A stretch of DNA of 64,000 nt, taken from the NCBI GenBank assembly GCA_022953095.1, contig JALJCR010000001.1, positions 1,026,501 to 1,090,500 on the forward strand, read 5' to 3'. The position numbers and the translations under genes were made by a program. This stretch comes from Qipengyuania sp. ABI-127-1 (GTDB lineage: Bacteria; Pseudomonadota; Alphaproteobacteria; Sphingomonadales; Sphingomonadaceae). The notes under the pieces are model-generated. The model searched no databases and had not been told where the DNA came from. It worked only from the letters and a program-made list of their open reading frames with translations. This document shows positions 59,509 to 63,482 of the stretch, piece after piece (positions within the stretch are counted from its first letter, which is position 1; each line of letters opens with the position of its first letter).

Positions 59509-60210
59509 ATGCGGCTAAGGCATTTGTCGATTACACTTATCGTTTTCTCACTGACTGCCTGCGGCAGCGTCGAGGATGTTGCGGAAGCGCCCGAGGCAAT
59601 GAGTGACGATGTGGCAGCGGCTCCCGACATCGTGGTCGACGGCCCCGAGCGCCGTATCCTGGCCTTCGGCGACAGCCTGTTTGCGGGTTACGGCCTGGAG
59701 GAGCAGCAGGGCTATCCCGAGCAGCTCGAAGACGCGATGCGCGGGCGGGGTATCAATGCGCGCGTCATCGATGCAGGTGTATCGGGCGATACGAGTGCAG
59801 CCGGTCGTCAGCGGCTTGCCTTCACGCTCGACGCGCAAAGGGTAAAGCCCGACCTCGTGATCCTCGAACTGGGCGGAAACGACATGCTGCGCGGCATCCA
59901 GCCGGAGCAGACGCGCGCCAATTTCGAGGCCATGCTGGAAGAGCTGCGGGGCCGCGAAATCCCCGTCCTGCTTATGGGCATGCGCTCGCCGCCCAATTAT
60001 GGCGAGGAGTATCAGCAGCAGTTCGATAGCCTTTATGGAGAACTCGCGCGCGAATACGATGTGGCACTGGTGCCCTTTTGGCTCGAGAGCATTTACGAGG
60101 ACCAGAGCCTGTTTCTCGACGATCGTATCCATCCCACCGCCGAAGGTATCACCGAGCTGGTCGAGGATACGGTGGACGATGTCGAAGCGGCGCTGCCGCC
60201 GGCCGGTTAG
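59509..60210 (+). CDS. tesA: GDSL arylesterase/lysophospholipase, TesA-like lipoprotein
   Basis: A 233-residue SGNH hydrolase. The lipobox LTAC (Cys18) anchors it, block I is AFGDSLFAGYGL, block III GGNDM and block V DDRIHPTAEG. It cleaves acyl esters or lysophospholipids in the periplasm. Divergent YbbA/YbbP genes are its usual neighbours. E. coli TesA is not a lipoprotein, so membrane attachment here is notable. The stop overlaps convergent recF. Confidence 0.9.
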   Translation: MRLRHLSITLIVFSLTACGSVEDVAEAPEAMSDDVAAAPDIVVDGPERRILAFGDSLFAGYGLEEQQGYPEQLEDAMRGRGINARVIDAGVSGDTSAAGRQRLAFTLDAQRVKPDLVILELGGNDMLRGIQPEQTRANFEAMLEELRGREIPVLLMGMRSPPNYGEEYQQQFDSLYGELAREYDVALVPFWLESIYEDQSLFLDDRIHPTAEGITELVEDTVDDVEAALPPAG

Positions 60211-61286
60211 ACGCGCTCCACGGCTCCGCCGTTCACCCGCCAGATCGCTGCTTCTTCCGCAATCGAGCTGAAAGGTGCCGGTTCGGTGCCCGTCATCCAG
60301 ACCTGCGCTCCGCTGCTGCGCAATTGCTCGAACAGCGCCGCCCGGCGGAGGGGGTCGAGATGGGCTGCCACTTCGTCGAGCAGCAGCAGGCCCGCGCGTC
60401 CCTGCGCTGCGAGCCCTGCATGCGCCAGCGTCATGGCTACCAGCATCGCCTTCTGTTCGCCGGTTGAACTTTGCGCTGCAGAAACACGCTTGGCCGCGTG
60501 GATCACGTCCAGCTCGTCACGATGCGGACCTTCGAGAGTACGCTGCGCGGCCCGGTCGCGCCTGCGATTGTCGTAGAGCGCCTGGCTGAGCCCGTCGGCA
60601 TGATCGGGCGCACCCGGATTATAGGTGAGAGCCGGGCGGGCAAAGGGCTCGGCCGGCATTTCCGCCAGGCGCACGGCGAGCGTTTCGACCAGTCGCGCGC
60701 GGCCCTGCATCAGCGCGGAACCATGCTGGACCATTTGCGCCTCGATGGCATCGAGCCACGCGCTTTCGAGTTCGCGCGTGTCGGATAGCAGGCGGTTGCG
60801 TTCGCGCAGCGCGGCATCGTAGCGGGCGGCATGGGTTGCATGGGCGGGATCGAGGGCGAGCGCGAGGCGGTCCATATAGCGTCGCCTGTCGCTCGCCGGC
60901 CCGGTGAACAGACCGTCCATTGCGGGAGTCAGCCAGGTGACGGCGAGCCATTCGCCGAGACTGGTCGCGGTGGTCTCCGCCCCGTTTACCCGCACGCGGC
61001 GTCGCCCCGGATTGGCGCTCTCCGCATAGGTGCCGAGACGGACAGTTTCGTCACCCTGCACGAGACTTGCCCCCACTCCGAAGCCGGTTTCGCTATCGCT
61101 GCGCACCATATCTGCCAGCGCGGCGCGGCGCAGCCCGCGCCCCGGCGCGAGTAGCGAAAGTGCCTCGAGAATGTTGGTCTTTCCCGCACCGTTCTCGCCC
61201 ACCAGCAGGTTGAACTGGCCGGTCTCGCCCAGCTCGGTCGCGGCATGGTTGCGGAAGTCGGTAAGGGAGATGCGGTCGAGCGCCAT
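60207..61286 (-). CDS. recF: DNA replication and repair protein RecF
   Basis: A 359-residue SMC-like ATPase that helps load RecA at gaps through RecOR. Walker A is GENGAGKT at 30-37, and Walker B and signature residues lie in GLLLLDEVAAHLD and ASSTGEQKAML-like segments. It is not next to dnaA, dnaN or gyrB here. It overlaps the tesA-like stop by four bases and is divergent from the sigma-54-driven operon. Confidence 0.95.
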   Translation of the reverse strand: MALDRISLTDFRNHAATELGETGQFNLLVGENGAGKTNILEALSLLAPGRGLRRAALADMVRSDSETGFGVGASLVQGDETVRLGTYAESANPGRRRVRVNGAETTATSLGEWLAVTWLTPAMDGLFTGPASDRRRYMDRLALALDPAHATHAARYDAALRERNRLLSDTRELESAWLDAIEAQMVQHGSALMQGRARLVETLAVRLAEMPAEPFARPALTYNPGAPDHADGLSQALYDNRRRDRAAQRTLEGPHRDELDVIHAAKRVSAAQSSTGEQKAMLVAMTLAHAGLAAQGRAGLLLLDEVAAHLDPLRRAALFEQLRSSGAQVWMTGTEPAPFSSIAEEAAIWRVNGGAVERV

Positions 61287-61343
61287 AGAGTGCCACGCGC
61301 GATAGCGCGCGCTGCCTCATACCGCCACTCGAAAGGCGCCATT

Positions 61344-61367
61344 CCAACAATTGGTAAAATTTCCCAA
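61344..61367. promoter_or_regulatory. Upstream dyad, candidate enhancer-binding site
   Basis: CCAACAATTGG overlaps TTGGTAAAATTTCCCAA (61351-61367), an AT-rich imperfect palindrome with TTGGnAAA/TTTnCCAA arms. It lies about 90-110 bases upstream of a sigma-54 -12 element, where PspF-type activators bind. The activator is not in this window, so the role is inference. Confidence 0.5.
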
Positions 61368-61441
61368 CCTTTCGGATTGATGAACGAGTGTGCGCGGACG
61401 AGTTCAGGTGGGAATGGCTGTTTTCCGCGGTTTCTCGATTT

Positions 61442-61457
61442 TGGCACGCCGGTTGCA
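61442..61457 (+). promoter_or_regulatory. Sigma-54 (RpoN) promoter
   Basis: TGGCACGCCGGTTGCA matches the sigma-54 consensus TGGCAC-N5-TTGCA at every fixed position, with GG (61443-61444) and GC (61455-61456) ten bases apart. The expected start is about 61468, some 48 bases before the first small gene and its AAGGAG ribosome-binding site. It is oriented toward the small-protein/pspC operon. Confidence 0.88.
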
Positions 61458-61515
61458 ATGTATTGGGCATCCCGGATGGTCCGGAGAAAACAAGCCAAGG
61501 TTCAAGGAGTTACCA

Positions 61516-61635
61516 ATGTCTATCTTCGATTATGCCAGCAACCGCGCCGTCGCCGCCGTCTTCGCTCTCAGCGTTTCCGCGATGTTCATGGCCGCAGCCA
61601 TCATCCCCGCCAGCCCAGCCGGCCTCGTCGCCTGA
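61516..61635 (+). CDS. 39-residue membrane protein, first of a homologous pair
   Basis: The frame reads MSIFDYASNRAVAAVFALSV and continues to a PASPAGLVA end, 39 residues in all. It is preceded by AAGGAG six bases from the ATG and lies just downstream of the sigma-54 promoter. A single hydrophobic helix (about 11-32) is followed by a PASPxGL tail. Nineteen of its last 32 residues match the next small gene, so the pair arose by duplication. The function is unknown. The site, coupling to PspC and conserved tail suggest an envelope-stress role. Confidence 0.8.
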   Translation: MSIFDYASNRAVAAVFALSVSAMFMAAAIIPASPAGLVA

Positions 61636-61679
61636 TCGGTTCGCTGACCGCCCAACCTTGACCCCGAAGGAAAGGAATT

Positions 61680-61796
61680 ATGTTCTCTCACGAAAATAGC
61701 AGCAGGCTTTTCGCAGCTGCCTTCTCACTGGCCCTGTCGGCGGCCTTCTTCGCCACGGCCATTCTCCCCGCCTCGCCCAATGGACTGATCGCATGA
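61680..61796 (+). CDS. 38-residue membrane protein, second of a homologous pair
   Basis: The frame encodes 38 residues (MFSHENSSRLFAAAFSLALS then AAFFATAILPASPNGLIA). GAAGGAAAGG precedes the ATG by about six bases, and its stop overlaps the pspC start (ATGA), which ties it to PspC translation. It matches the preceding small protein in 19 of 32 aligned residues, mostly in the hydrophobic helix and the PASPxGLxA end. The function is unknown; the small size and hydrophobicity suggest a membrane-embedded partner of PspC. Confidence 0.82.
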   Translation: MFSHENSSRLFAAAFSLALSAAFFATAILPASPNGLIA

Positions 61797-62014
61797 ACGA
61801 CCTGAAATTCCGCGAAACCGACCACGCCGTTCGTCCCGCCAAGAGCTTCGCGCTCGATCGCACCGGCGGCAAACTGATGGGGGTCTGCTCCGGCATCGCC
61901 CGCTATTTCGGCATCGATGCCACCTGGGTCCGCCTGGGCTTCGTTGCAGGAACGCTGCTCGGCTTCGGCAGCTTCATCCTGATCTACCTGGCAATCGCCC
62001 TGATTGCCGACTGA
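61793..62014 (+). CDS. pspC: Short PspC-domain membrane protein
   Basis: A 73-residue PspC-domain protein. The core is DRTGGKLMGVCSGIARYFGID then the TWVRLGFVAGTLLGFGSFIL membrane hairpin. PspC senses or relays inner-membrane stress in the phage-shock response. This copy lacks the C-terminal coiled-coil extension of E. coli PspC (119 residues). No pspA, pspB or pspF is nearby. Translation is coupled to the upstream 38-residue gene. Confidence 0.88.
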   Translation: MNDLKFRETDHAVRPAKSFALDRTGGKLMGVCSGIARYFGIDATWVRLGFVAGTLLGFGSFILIYLAIALIAD

Positions 62015-62084
62015 GCACGGCCACTCGCCAGACCGACCCGGTTTTCATGGGGCGGCCGTGCCCACCAGAACTTGAGAAAACCGG

Positions 62085-62107
62085 GAGGGGCCATCTGGCC
62101 CCTCTTG
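62085..62107 (+). terminator. Rho-independent-type terminator after pspC
   Basis: GAGGGGCC (62085-62092) and GGCCCCTC (62097-62104) form a stem over the four-base loop ATCT, followed by TTGTG. It would end the small-protein/pspC transcript, and its other strand lies just past the convergent SDR gene stop. Confidence 0.75.
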
Positions 62108-62127
62108 TGATTCCGGCCTCCAACTTC

Positions 62128-62910
62128 CTACATCGCGGAAATGCCGCCATCGAGTTTCAGCTCGGCGCCAGTCATGAAGCGGCTCTCGTCGCTCGCCAGA
62201 TAGACCACCGCATTGGCGATATCATTGGGCTCGCCGACGAATTTGAGCGGTATCTGCCGCGCTAGCTTGTCCAGCAGCACTCCCTTGTCGAGATTGTGAT
62301 GCTTGGCCGTCCCGTCGAGGATCGGCGTGTCGACGAAGGTCGGGTGTACCGAGTTACAACGGATCTGCATGTTGTTCTTGGCGCAGTGCAGCGCGATCGA
62401 TTTGGACAGCATCCACACCGACGCCTTGCTGGCGTTGTAAGCAGGCATGGTATCGCTGGCGATCAGTCCGGCGATGCTCGAAATGTTCACGATCGAACCA
62501 GGCGCGTGTTCGCGCATGAGGGGCAACGCCTTTTGGCAGCCGTGAAAGATCGAATCGACATTGATCGCGAAACAGCGCTTCCAATCATCGAAATCGCAGG
62601 TCTCGATATTCCCCGCGACGCCGATCCCGGCATTGTTCACCAGCACGTTGAGTCCGCCGAGTTGTTCGCGTGCGGCATTGATTGCTGCTTCCCAGGCGTG
62701 TGGATCGGTGACGTCATGCGCGATTGAAAACGCCGTGCCATCGCCCAGCGCCTCGTTGATCAGCGCTGCGCTCTCCGCCGCGCCTTTGCCGTTGATGTCG
62801 GTGCACAGCACCCGGGCGCCTTCTTCGGCAAGCCGCGTCGCATGCGCGCGCCCGAGGCCTTGGGCCGCCCCCGTCACCAGGGCGAGTTTGCCCGCACACC
62901 GTCCAGTCAT
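62128..62910 (-). CDS. Short-chain dehydrogenase/reductase
   Basis: A 260-residue classical SDR. The NAD-binding motif is TGAAQGLGRAH, NNAGIGVAG is conserved, and catalytic Ser, Tyr and Lys appear as NISS and YNASK. A C-terminal GAELKLDGGISA is typical of FabG-like and hydroxysteroid dehydrogenases. The substrate is not evident. ATG 62910 begins the usual N-terminus. It starts three bases after the NUDIX gene stop on the same strand. Confidence 0.9.
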   Translation of the reverse strand: MTGRCAGKLALVTGAAQGLGRAHATRLAEEGARVLCTDINGKGAAESAALINEALGDGTAFSIAHDVTDPHAWEAAINAAREQLGGLNVLVNNAGIGVAGNIETCDFDDWKRCFAINVDSIFHGCQKALPLMREHAPGSIVNISSIAGLIASDTMPAYNASKASVWMLSKSIALHCAKNNMQIRCNSVHPTFVDTPILDGTAKHHNLDKGVLLDKLARQIPLKFVGEPNDIANAVVYLASDESRFMTGAELKLDGGISAM

Positions 62911-62912
62911 TG

Positions 62913-63482
62913 TCACTCTCCTGTCAGAATCCCTTGTCCGAGCAACAGGAGCATGCGCACGTCGATCCCGCAACCTTGGTTTCGTTTAGCAACGATAAAA
63001 CTGGGCAGATCGGCCAGCGCTACGCGATGGACGGTGATGTTCTCGCCTTCGGTCCCGCCGCCTTCGGAGATCTTGGTCAGATCGTGCGCGCGGACCATGG
63101 TAAAACTCTCTCCGAGGAGGCCGGGCGAGGAGTAGAATTCGCCACAATCCTCCAGCCGCGCCGCGCGATAGCCGGTCTCTTCCTCCAGCTCGCGGGCCGC
63201 GGCGGCGAGCGGGGCTTCGCCTTCGGTCTCGTCGCCGATCAGGCCGGCGGGCAGTTCGAGGCAGCTTCTGCCCATCGGCACGCGGTACTGTTCGACCAGC
63301 AGGACATGGCCGTTCTCGACCGCGAGGATGACAGCAGCGCGTACGCCACGCGGACGGGTCACATATTCCCAGCGGCCGCGCTTGCAAGTAGTCAGGAACT
63401 TGCCCTGCCAGACGATCTCCTCGTCCGCGTCATGATCGGGCACCGTCAGACTGGGCGACAAAGGCGACACCGTGTCACCCAT
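62913..63482 (-). CDS. NUDIX hydrolase, ADP-ribose pyrophosphatase-like
   Basis: A 189-residue hydrolase with a full NUDIX box from Gly83 to Tyr105: GDETEGE, then REL, then EEETGY-like residues (Arg97, Glu98, Glu101, Glu102, Gly104). The core also has VEQYRVPMGRSCLELPAG, the ADP-ribose-pyrophosphatase pattern. It would hydrolyse ADP-ribose or a related nucleoside diphosphate. The SDR gene lies downstream across three bases, so they probably share a transcript. Confidence 0.9.
   Translation of the reverse strand: MGDTVSPLSPSLTVPDHDADEEIVWQGKFLTTCKRGRWEYVTRPRGVRAAVILAVENGHVLLVEQYRVPMGRSCLELPAGLIGDETEGEAPLAAAARELEEETGYRAARLEDCGEFYSSPGLLGESFTMVRAHDLTKISEGGGTEGENITVHRVALADLPSFIVAKRNQGCGIDVRMLLLLGQGILTGE

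Follow-up and report, generated by a model that had tools for sequence, protein, structure and literature searches.

The window (the whole stretch of DNA analysed, 64 kb, C1:1026501-1090500 of a 3.15 Mb genome) holds a small operon with a sigma-54 promoter, two tiny genes and a gene for a short PspC-domain protein. The question raised by this locus is which regulator switches the operon on and what its products are for. A sequence-only reading had proposed a stand-alone mini-psp operon in which the tiny genes take the place of PspA and PspB. These two are indeed absent next door, but a canonical pspF/pspABC locus of the same genome, about 79 kb away, encodes both, and replacement of PspA and PspB by the tiny proteins is thereby ruled out. 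The other part of that proposal, sigma-54 together with probably a PspF-type control of a small PspC operon, stands: the promoter is conserved and shares its dyad type with pspA.

The operon is best explained, with fair but not full confidence, as a satellite of the PspF regulon, its tiny proteins and a tail-less PspC forming an effector arm and not a relay to PspF. Control by PspF appears well supported by the promoter sequences, from which PspF is the presumed activator; the effector role is suggested by two things, the missing PspC tail and analogy.

Organization of the locus

The operon forms one plus-strand unit between a recF-like gene and a short-chain dehydrogenase gene. Judged by the PspC gene, the closest public relatives are genomes of Erythrobacter and Qipengyuania. 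The features are as follows.

60207-61286, minus strand: recF-like gene, SMC_N domain
61351-61367, plus strand: upstream dyad TTGG-N9-CCAA (TTGGTAAAATTTCCCAA), candidate PspF enhancer; exact, at -91 relative to the TGG in the -24 element
61368-61385, plus strand: block CCTTTCGGATTGATGAAC, possible further-regulator or bending site, marked by conserved position
61413-61432, plus strand: second dyad, a degenerate copy (consensus AATGGCNGAATTCNGCCATT), directly upstream of the -24 element
61442-61456, plus strand: sigma-54 -24/-12 core TGGCACGCCGGTTGC; the match TGGCAC-GCCGG-TTGCA spans 61442-61457
61504-61509, plus strand: ribosome-binding site of s1, AAGGAG, read in the sequence
61516-61635, plus strand: s1, first tiny membrane protein (predicted), 39 aa, one hydrophobic stretch; in alignment A1
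61671-61676, plus strand: AAAGGA upstream of s2, read in the sequence
61680-61796, plus strand: s2, second tiny membrane protein (predicted), 38 aa, paralog of s1; in alignment A1
61793-62014, plus strand: PspC-domain protein of 73 aa without the tail, overlapping s2 by ATGA; PF04024
62082-62107, strand not assigned: GC-rich hairpin, terminator-like, possibly of the facing gene or of both genes
62128-62913, minus strand: short-chain dehydrogenase

The two very small hydrophobic genes with ribosome-binding sites are thus as first described, and so is the PspC gene coupled to them by ATGA. The closing terminator is less clear. The hairpin is strong (-30.6 kcal/mol, z -3.0 for the segment 62050-62112), but in the sole terminator-like match there (1 match, 0.9 expected) the T-rich tail is on the minus strand, so that the hairpin may terminate the facing gene instead of, or besides, the psp-type operon. 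Neither strand of 61250-62200 shows a sigma-70 promoter-like site, and 61200-62200 matches no Rfam family (E up to 1); an antisense RNA over the tiny genes, as in a type I toxin-antitoxin system, may nevertheless exist.

Promoter structure

The sigma-54 pattern matches once in the 64-kb window, with 0.03 matches expected from shuffles, and TGGCAC-N6-TGC is present in all 57 promoters (the window and 56 relatives); a chance match is rejected on these grounds, and the consensus core first read upstream of the operon is confirmed. The upstream dyad of the same reading also holds up. Exact TTGG-N9-CCAA lies at -90 to -92 from the first T of the core in 47 of the 57 promoters, and the remaining dyads have one mismatch (7/57), two mismatches (2/57) or are masked by N (1/57).

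A 20-bp dyad of the AATGGCNGAATTCNGCCATT type, often near-perfect, ends 9 bases before the core. Scored with a consensus derived from these very promoters, it is found with at most two mismatches at -29/-28 in 32 of 57; the window copy has four. The CCTTTCGGATTGATGAAC block is conserved in position in 23 Qipengyuania-type promoters, and a similar block lies about two helix turns nearer the core in 12 Aurantiacibacter-type promoters. The conserved form of the block, CCTTTCGG-N4-ATGAAC, differs in position between genus groups and is a possible site of a further regulator. These extra satellite blocks are weak or absent at pspA promoters, which counts against control by PspF only, so another regulator may take part.

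Conservation of the operon among relatives

Loci were gathered by the PspC protein alone; 56 sphingomonad loci out of 62 were retained, and the upstream regions were then examined. The six loci excluded from the counts (L059-L064) are from Flavobacterium, Flavobacteriaceae, Rikenellaceae, Frateuria and two Corynebacterium; a simple scan found neither the sigma-54 pattern nor tiny ORFs in them. One to three tiny genes lie between promoter and PspC in 57/57 loci, so that the gene order and sigma-54 promoter predicted for relatives are both found. By script, 44 loci have two tiny genes, 10 have one and two have three; in L054 a single one was missed by the script and found by eye. Being related, the 57 loci are not independent samples: they hold 52 distinct 19-mers, and L003 is nearly identical to the window. 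The ATGA overlap with PspC is shared by the window and many relatives, and a recF-like motif upstream in 52 of the 56 relatives favours vertical inheritance.

A model of 31 tiny proteins (alignment A1) was used for an independent retrieval, from which 30 loci were fetched, the window included; their species may overlap with those in the model. The sigma-54 pattern is upstream in 29/30, the dyad at -90 to -92 is exact in 16/30 and has one mismatch in 12/30, and a PspC motif is downstream in 28/30. At a threshold of E up to 0.01 the same model has matches in 40 of the 99 family genomes; the 59 without a match count against the PspF-satellite reading. A protein search returned 457 homologs with E up to 0.001, and the organisms named among the 120 listed belong to Erythrobacteraceae genera. 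Three of the listed homologs (P0001, P0006 and P0053, 39-43 aa) are labelled 'recombination protein F', a label perhaps carried over from the adjacent recF. Homolog P0043 bears the Pfam tag PF25949, for which the Pfam scan gave no match.

Canonical psp locus and control by PspF

The search for pspF elsewhere in the genome, suggested by the sequence-only reading, was successful. Besides pspB and a full-length pspC, the canonical locus contains the following.

C1:1008267-1009253: pspF, over the TIGR02974 cut-off
C1:1007063-1007719: pspA
C1:1008131: sigma-54 site of pspA, divergent from pspF

The PspF of this genome is 47% identical to that of E. coli. Its pspA promoter carries an exact dyad, TTGGCAATAAAAACCAA, at -71 and a weaker one (6/8) at -91, whereas the exact dyad of the satellite is at -91. 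TGGCACRNNNNTTGC occurs at 10 sites of the genome, compared with 4 in the reversed control. At the eight other sites the dyad reaches at best only 4-6 of 8, and several of them are possibly chance matches; 12 of 4000 random stretches score 8/8. A nearby sigma-54-like site at C1:1093906 was considered as a further regulon member and rejected, as it has no dyad (best 5/8). Altogether 31 pspF loci were examined, 27 of which have a pspA promoter available to test: the dyad is exact in 9 (mostly at -70/-71), has one mismatch in 5, and is present in neither the exact nor the tried one-mismatch forms in 13, which speaks against the PspF-satellite reading.

A composite pattern (dyad, 55-85 bases, sigma-54 core) matches twice in the own genome and not at all in the reversed control. 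The second site, C1:438984-439089, also with an exact upstream dyad, is followed by two more tiny paralogs, each 36 aa long, and by no PspC. This second pair (L084:1160-1440, minus strand; C1:438643-439089 including the promoter) adjoins a ruvC-like gene, as judged by eye. In the family sample of 99 genomes, 45 matches were found in 40 genomes, with 1 control match. Classified by eye, the 44 matches besides the window precede pspA (16), tiny-gene units (21, a PspC ORF being displayed for at least 14) or other short ORFs and PspC proteins (7). Among 289 genomes of the class, 4 of the 285 outside the family match the pattern, with 2 control matches, and the arrangement looks family-specific at the sampled depth.

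PspF is over the cut-off in 91 of the 99 family genomes and cut by a contig end in one more; with the composite pattern in 40 genomes only, this is a point against the satellite reading. Seven genomes are without PspF over the cut-off. None of the seven has a composite site and none the tiny family, as against 40/92 each in the other genomes (about 0.02 by hand; one of the seven genomes is 67% complete), a contrast that is only supportive of the link to PspF.

A matrix built on 52 distinct satellite dyad sites gave one outlier dyad in the E. coli pspF-pspA intergenic region, at 11.9 bits; 5 of 1000 single-base shuffles scored as well, and the best of 16 other stretches near it scored 6.7 bits. 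We take this dyad to be the place where E. coli PspF binds. It starts at -82 from the TGG of the -24 element, compared with 92 in the satellites, a difference that weighs against the satellite reading. The stricter sigma-54 pattern has no match in the E. coli psp region, the -12 element there being TTGT, and the E. coli core was therefore located by its letters.

Tiny membrane proteins

The proteins s1 and s2 are paralogs, 53% identical in alignment A1. Each has a single hydrophobic stretch and one arginine, and close to the N-terminus one or two residues that are acidic or histidine; insertion into the membrane is predicted. Across the satellite operons the tiny genes occur in 1-3 tandem copies and encode 36-47 aa. 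Purifying selection (pN/pS 0.37 for s1 and 0.28 for s2, from the 17 of 57 loci of equal length that were compared) supports their coding status. No Pfam or NCBIfam family was matched at E up to 1; as PspG models are presumably present in these libraries, s1 and s2 are taken not to be PspG. Nor is there a sequence match to PspB in Pfam or NCBIfam, the true PspB of this genome being that of the canonical operon. When 10 tiny proteins were scanned at E up to 10, the one match was DUF3379 (E 0.16, below the cut-off). A structure was predicted for L032, a relative of 43 aa that forms the first row of A2 and is not the window's own protein; it is one helix at residues 4-32, with a mean pLDDT of 71.5.

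Tail-less PspC

The satellite PspC matches PF04024 at 64.6 bits (gathering cut-off 25), and by this profile the assignment of a PspC domain is secure. With TIGR02978 it reaches only 53.9 bits, under the 104-bit cut-off, and covers profile positions 7-59 of 121, whereas the canonical PspC of the same genome, 125 aa long, scores 127.3 bits over positions 2-121. The satellite copy thus differs from the canonical one in having no C-terminal half. It had been described as truncated, but none of the 57 copies exceeds 73 aa, counted from the matched start, and this makes it a fixed short form and no broken gene. The structure model of the window's PspC is poor (58.9).

In Yersinia the C-terminal tail of PspC binds PspA (excerpt of PMC5596341). 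Without this tail, the satellite PspC is not expected to signal on to PspF through a contact of the Yersinia type; mainly for this reason, its role is probably that of an effector or of a feedback component.

Proposed mechanism and alternatives

Inner-membrane stress would act on the canonical PspBC/PspA switch, which would release PspF. PspF would then bind the TTGG-N9-CCAA enhancer and activate sigma-54 polymerase at 61442. The predicted output consists of a pair of tiny membrane proteins, each single-pass, together with a PspC in which the membrane domain is retained and the PspA-binding cytoplasmic tail is missing. These products would enter the inner membrane and may stabilise or occupy damaged membrane or mislocalised proteins.

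The same PspF-driven satellite might instead provide feedback: its tiny proteins and its tail-less PspC would join mixed PspB/PspC complexes that do not bind PspA, and would so damp or reset the response. This is rather unlikely. The absence of the Yersinia PspA-binding tail from all 57 PspC copies (PMC5596341, in part) would suit it, as would the tail retained by the full-length PspC of the same genome, but an interaction with PspB or PspC has no sequence support and the second tiny-gene locus is without PspC. Still less probable is that the tiny proteins are TisB- or YohP-like membrane-active peptides which lower the membrane potential in order to slow metabolism, PspC being their protector or partner. 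Small size, one hydrophobic stretch, tandem copies and the single predicted helix of the 43-aa relative would fit such peptides, and E. coli YohP, itself a small membrane protein, reduces the membrane potential and leads to induction of PspA and PspC (PMC12719787, in part). However, these peptides are often positively flanked according to the same excerpt, whereas s1 and s2 have one arginine each; the region has no sigma-70 promoter-like site and no Rfam match over the intervals given above; and PspC is downstream in nearly all loci retrieved by the tiny-protein model.

A stand-alone mini-psp module under another enhancer-binding protein and independent of the canonical psp locus, a view close to the sequence-only proposal, is improbable. 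The genome has five other strong matches to sigma-54 activators, and both the satellite blocks that are weak or absent at pspA promoters and the 13 pspA promoters without a dyad would be accommodated; but the own pspA promoter beside pspF and the E. coli psp promoter have the same type of site, and the composite site and the tiny family are both missing from the seven genomes in which PspF does not pass the cut-off. Least credible is that the short ORFs are mere leader peptides setting the translation of PspC. Such a role would agree with the ATGA overlap in the window and many relatives, yet the protein sequences of s1 and s2 are under purifying selection, the tiny genes come in one to three tandem copies, and a pair exists with no PspC behind it. 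The effector-arm satellite under PspF thus remains the preferred explanation.

Comparison with known systems

The operon resembles pspG, which PspF targets at an unlinked site in E. coli and Yersinia (excerpts of PMC9239133, PMC5596341 and PMC2763126), in being unlinked from pspABC and in having a sigma-54 promoter, predicted PspF control and a predicted small membrane product. It differs from pspG in that s1 and s2 have no Pfam or NCBIfam match and that one to three tandem copies are followed by PspC. The pspG-like logic is already known, and the tiny proteins appear from their sequences to be unrelated to PspG. With the canonical pspABC and its divergent pspF the satellite shares a PspC domain, a sigma-54 core and the same dyad type, but it is without PspA and PspB. 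Like E. coli YohP, the tiny proteins are below 50 aa, with one predicted transmembrane stretch and a link to envelope stress; the sigma-54/PspF-type promoter and the PspC partner set them apart, and the composite promoter shows no enrichment outside the family among the class genomes sampled. The stand-alone PspC domain, a paralog alongside a canonical PspC, recalls the short PspC-only proteins of surveys (excerpts of PMC9239133 and PMC11237479).

The excerpts of these two Psp surveys contain neither the operon nor its promoter nor the tiny genes, and the main texts contain no word starting with 'sphingo'. In the excerpt of a Novosphingobium genomics paper (PMC5443232), a PspC gene appears only in a table of phage-associated regions. 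No description of the operon appeared among the papers listed by the literature searches, most subscription journals being outside their reach. According to a 2022 survey (PMC9239133), PspF had until then been described in the Psp response of Enterobacteriaceae only. If the satellite reading is correct, the PspF regulon would extend to a large family of Alphaproteobacteria in which a cis-site is ready-made, and a new tiny-protein family would be paired with a PspC without known PspA contact, making a role of PspC apart from PspA signalling directly testable.

Small proteins in the pspA operons of the family

Across the Sphingomonadaceae, tiny single-pass proteins may belong to several, perhaps most, units of the Psp regulon, as first genes of pspA operons, in satellites with tail-less PspC and as stand-alone pairs; they would make up a PspA-independent effector or feedback arm unknown in enterobacteria. 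This wider proposal is tentative, at somewhat under even confidence. The pspA operons of the family often begin with a short membrane-protein gene. Compared with A1, 14 pspA-leader proteins of other sphingomonads gave an hhalign probability of 93, which hydrophobic composition may inflate, and 11 leaders of the own-genome type gave no match (0.3).

The canonical pspABC operon extends into four small genes (L001:91-1287, minus strand; near C1:1006548) encoding proteins of 90-104 aa. By eye, these have a C-terminal LER/VER-type motif as in PspB and, loosely, PspC; for one of the four there is a weak match to PspB, below the cut-off at E 0.0023. Some members of the family have a pspA operon that opens with a gene for a longer protein, of about 160-175 aa (L122:943-1443; ORFs in L091, L123 and L127). 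The start of these proteins is signal-peptide-like and similar to the tiny leaders, and the one from L122 has a TonB_C domain (TonB C-terminal).
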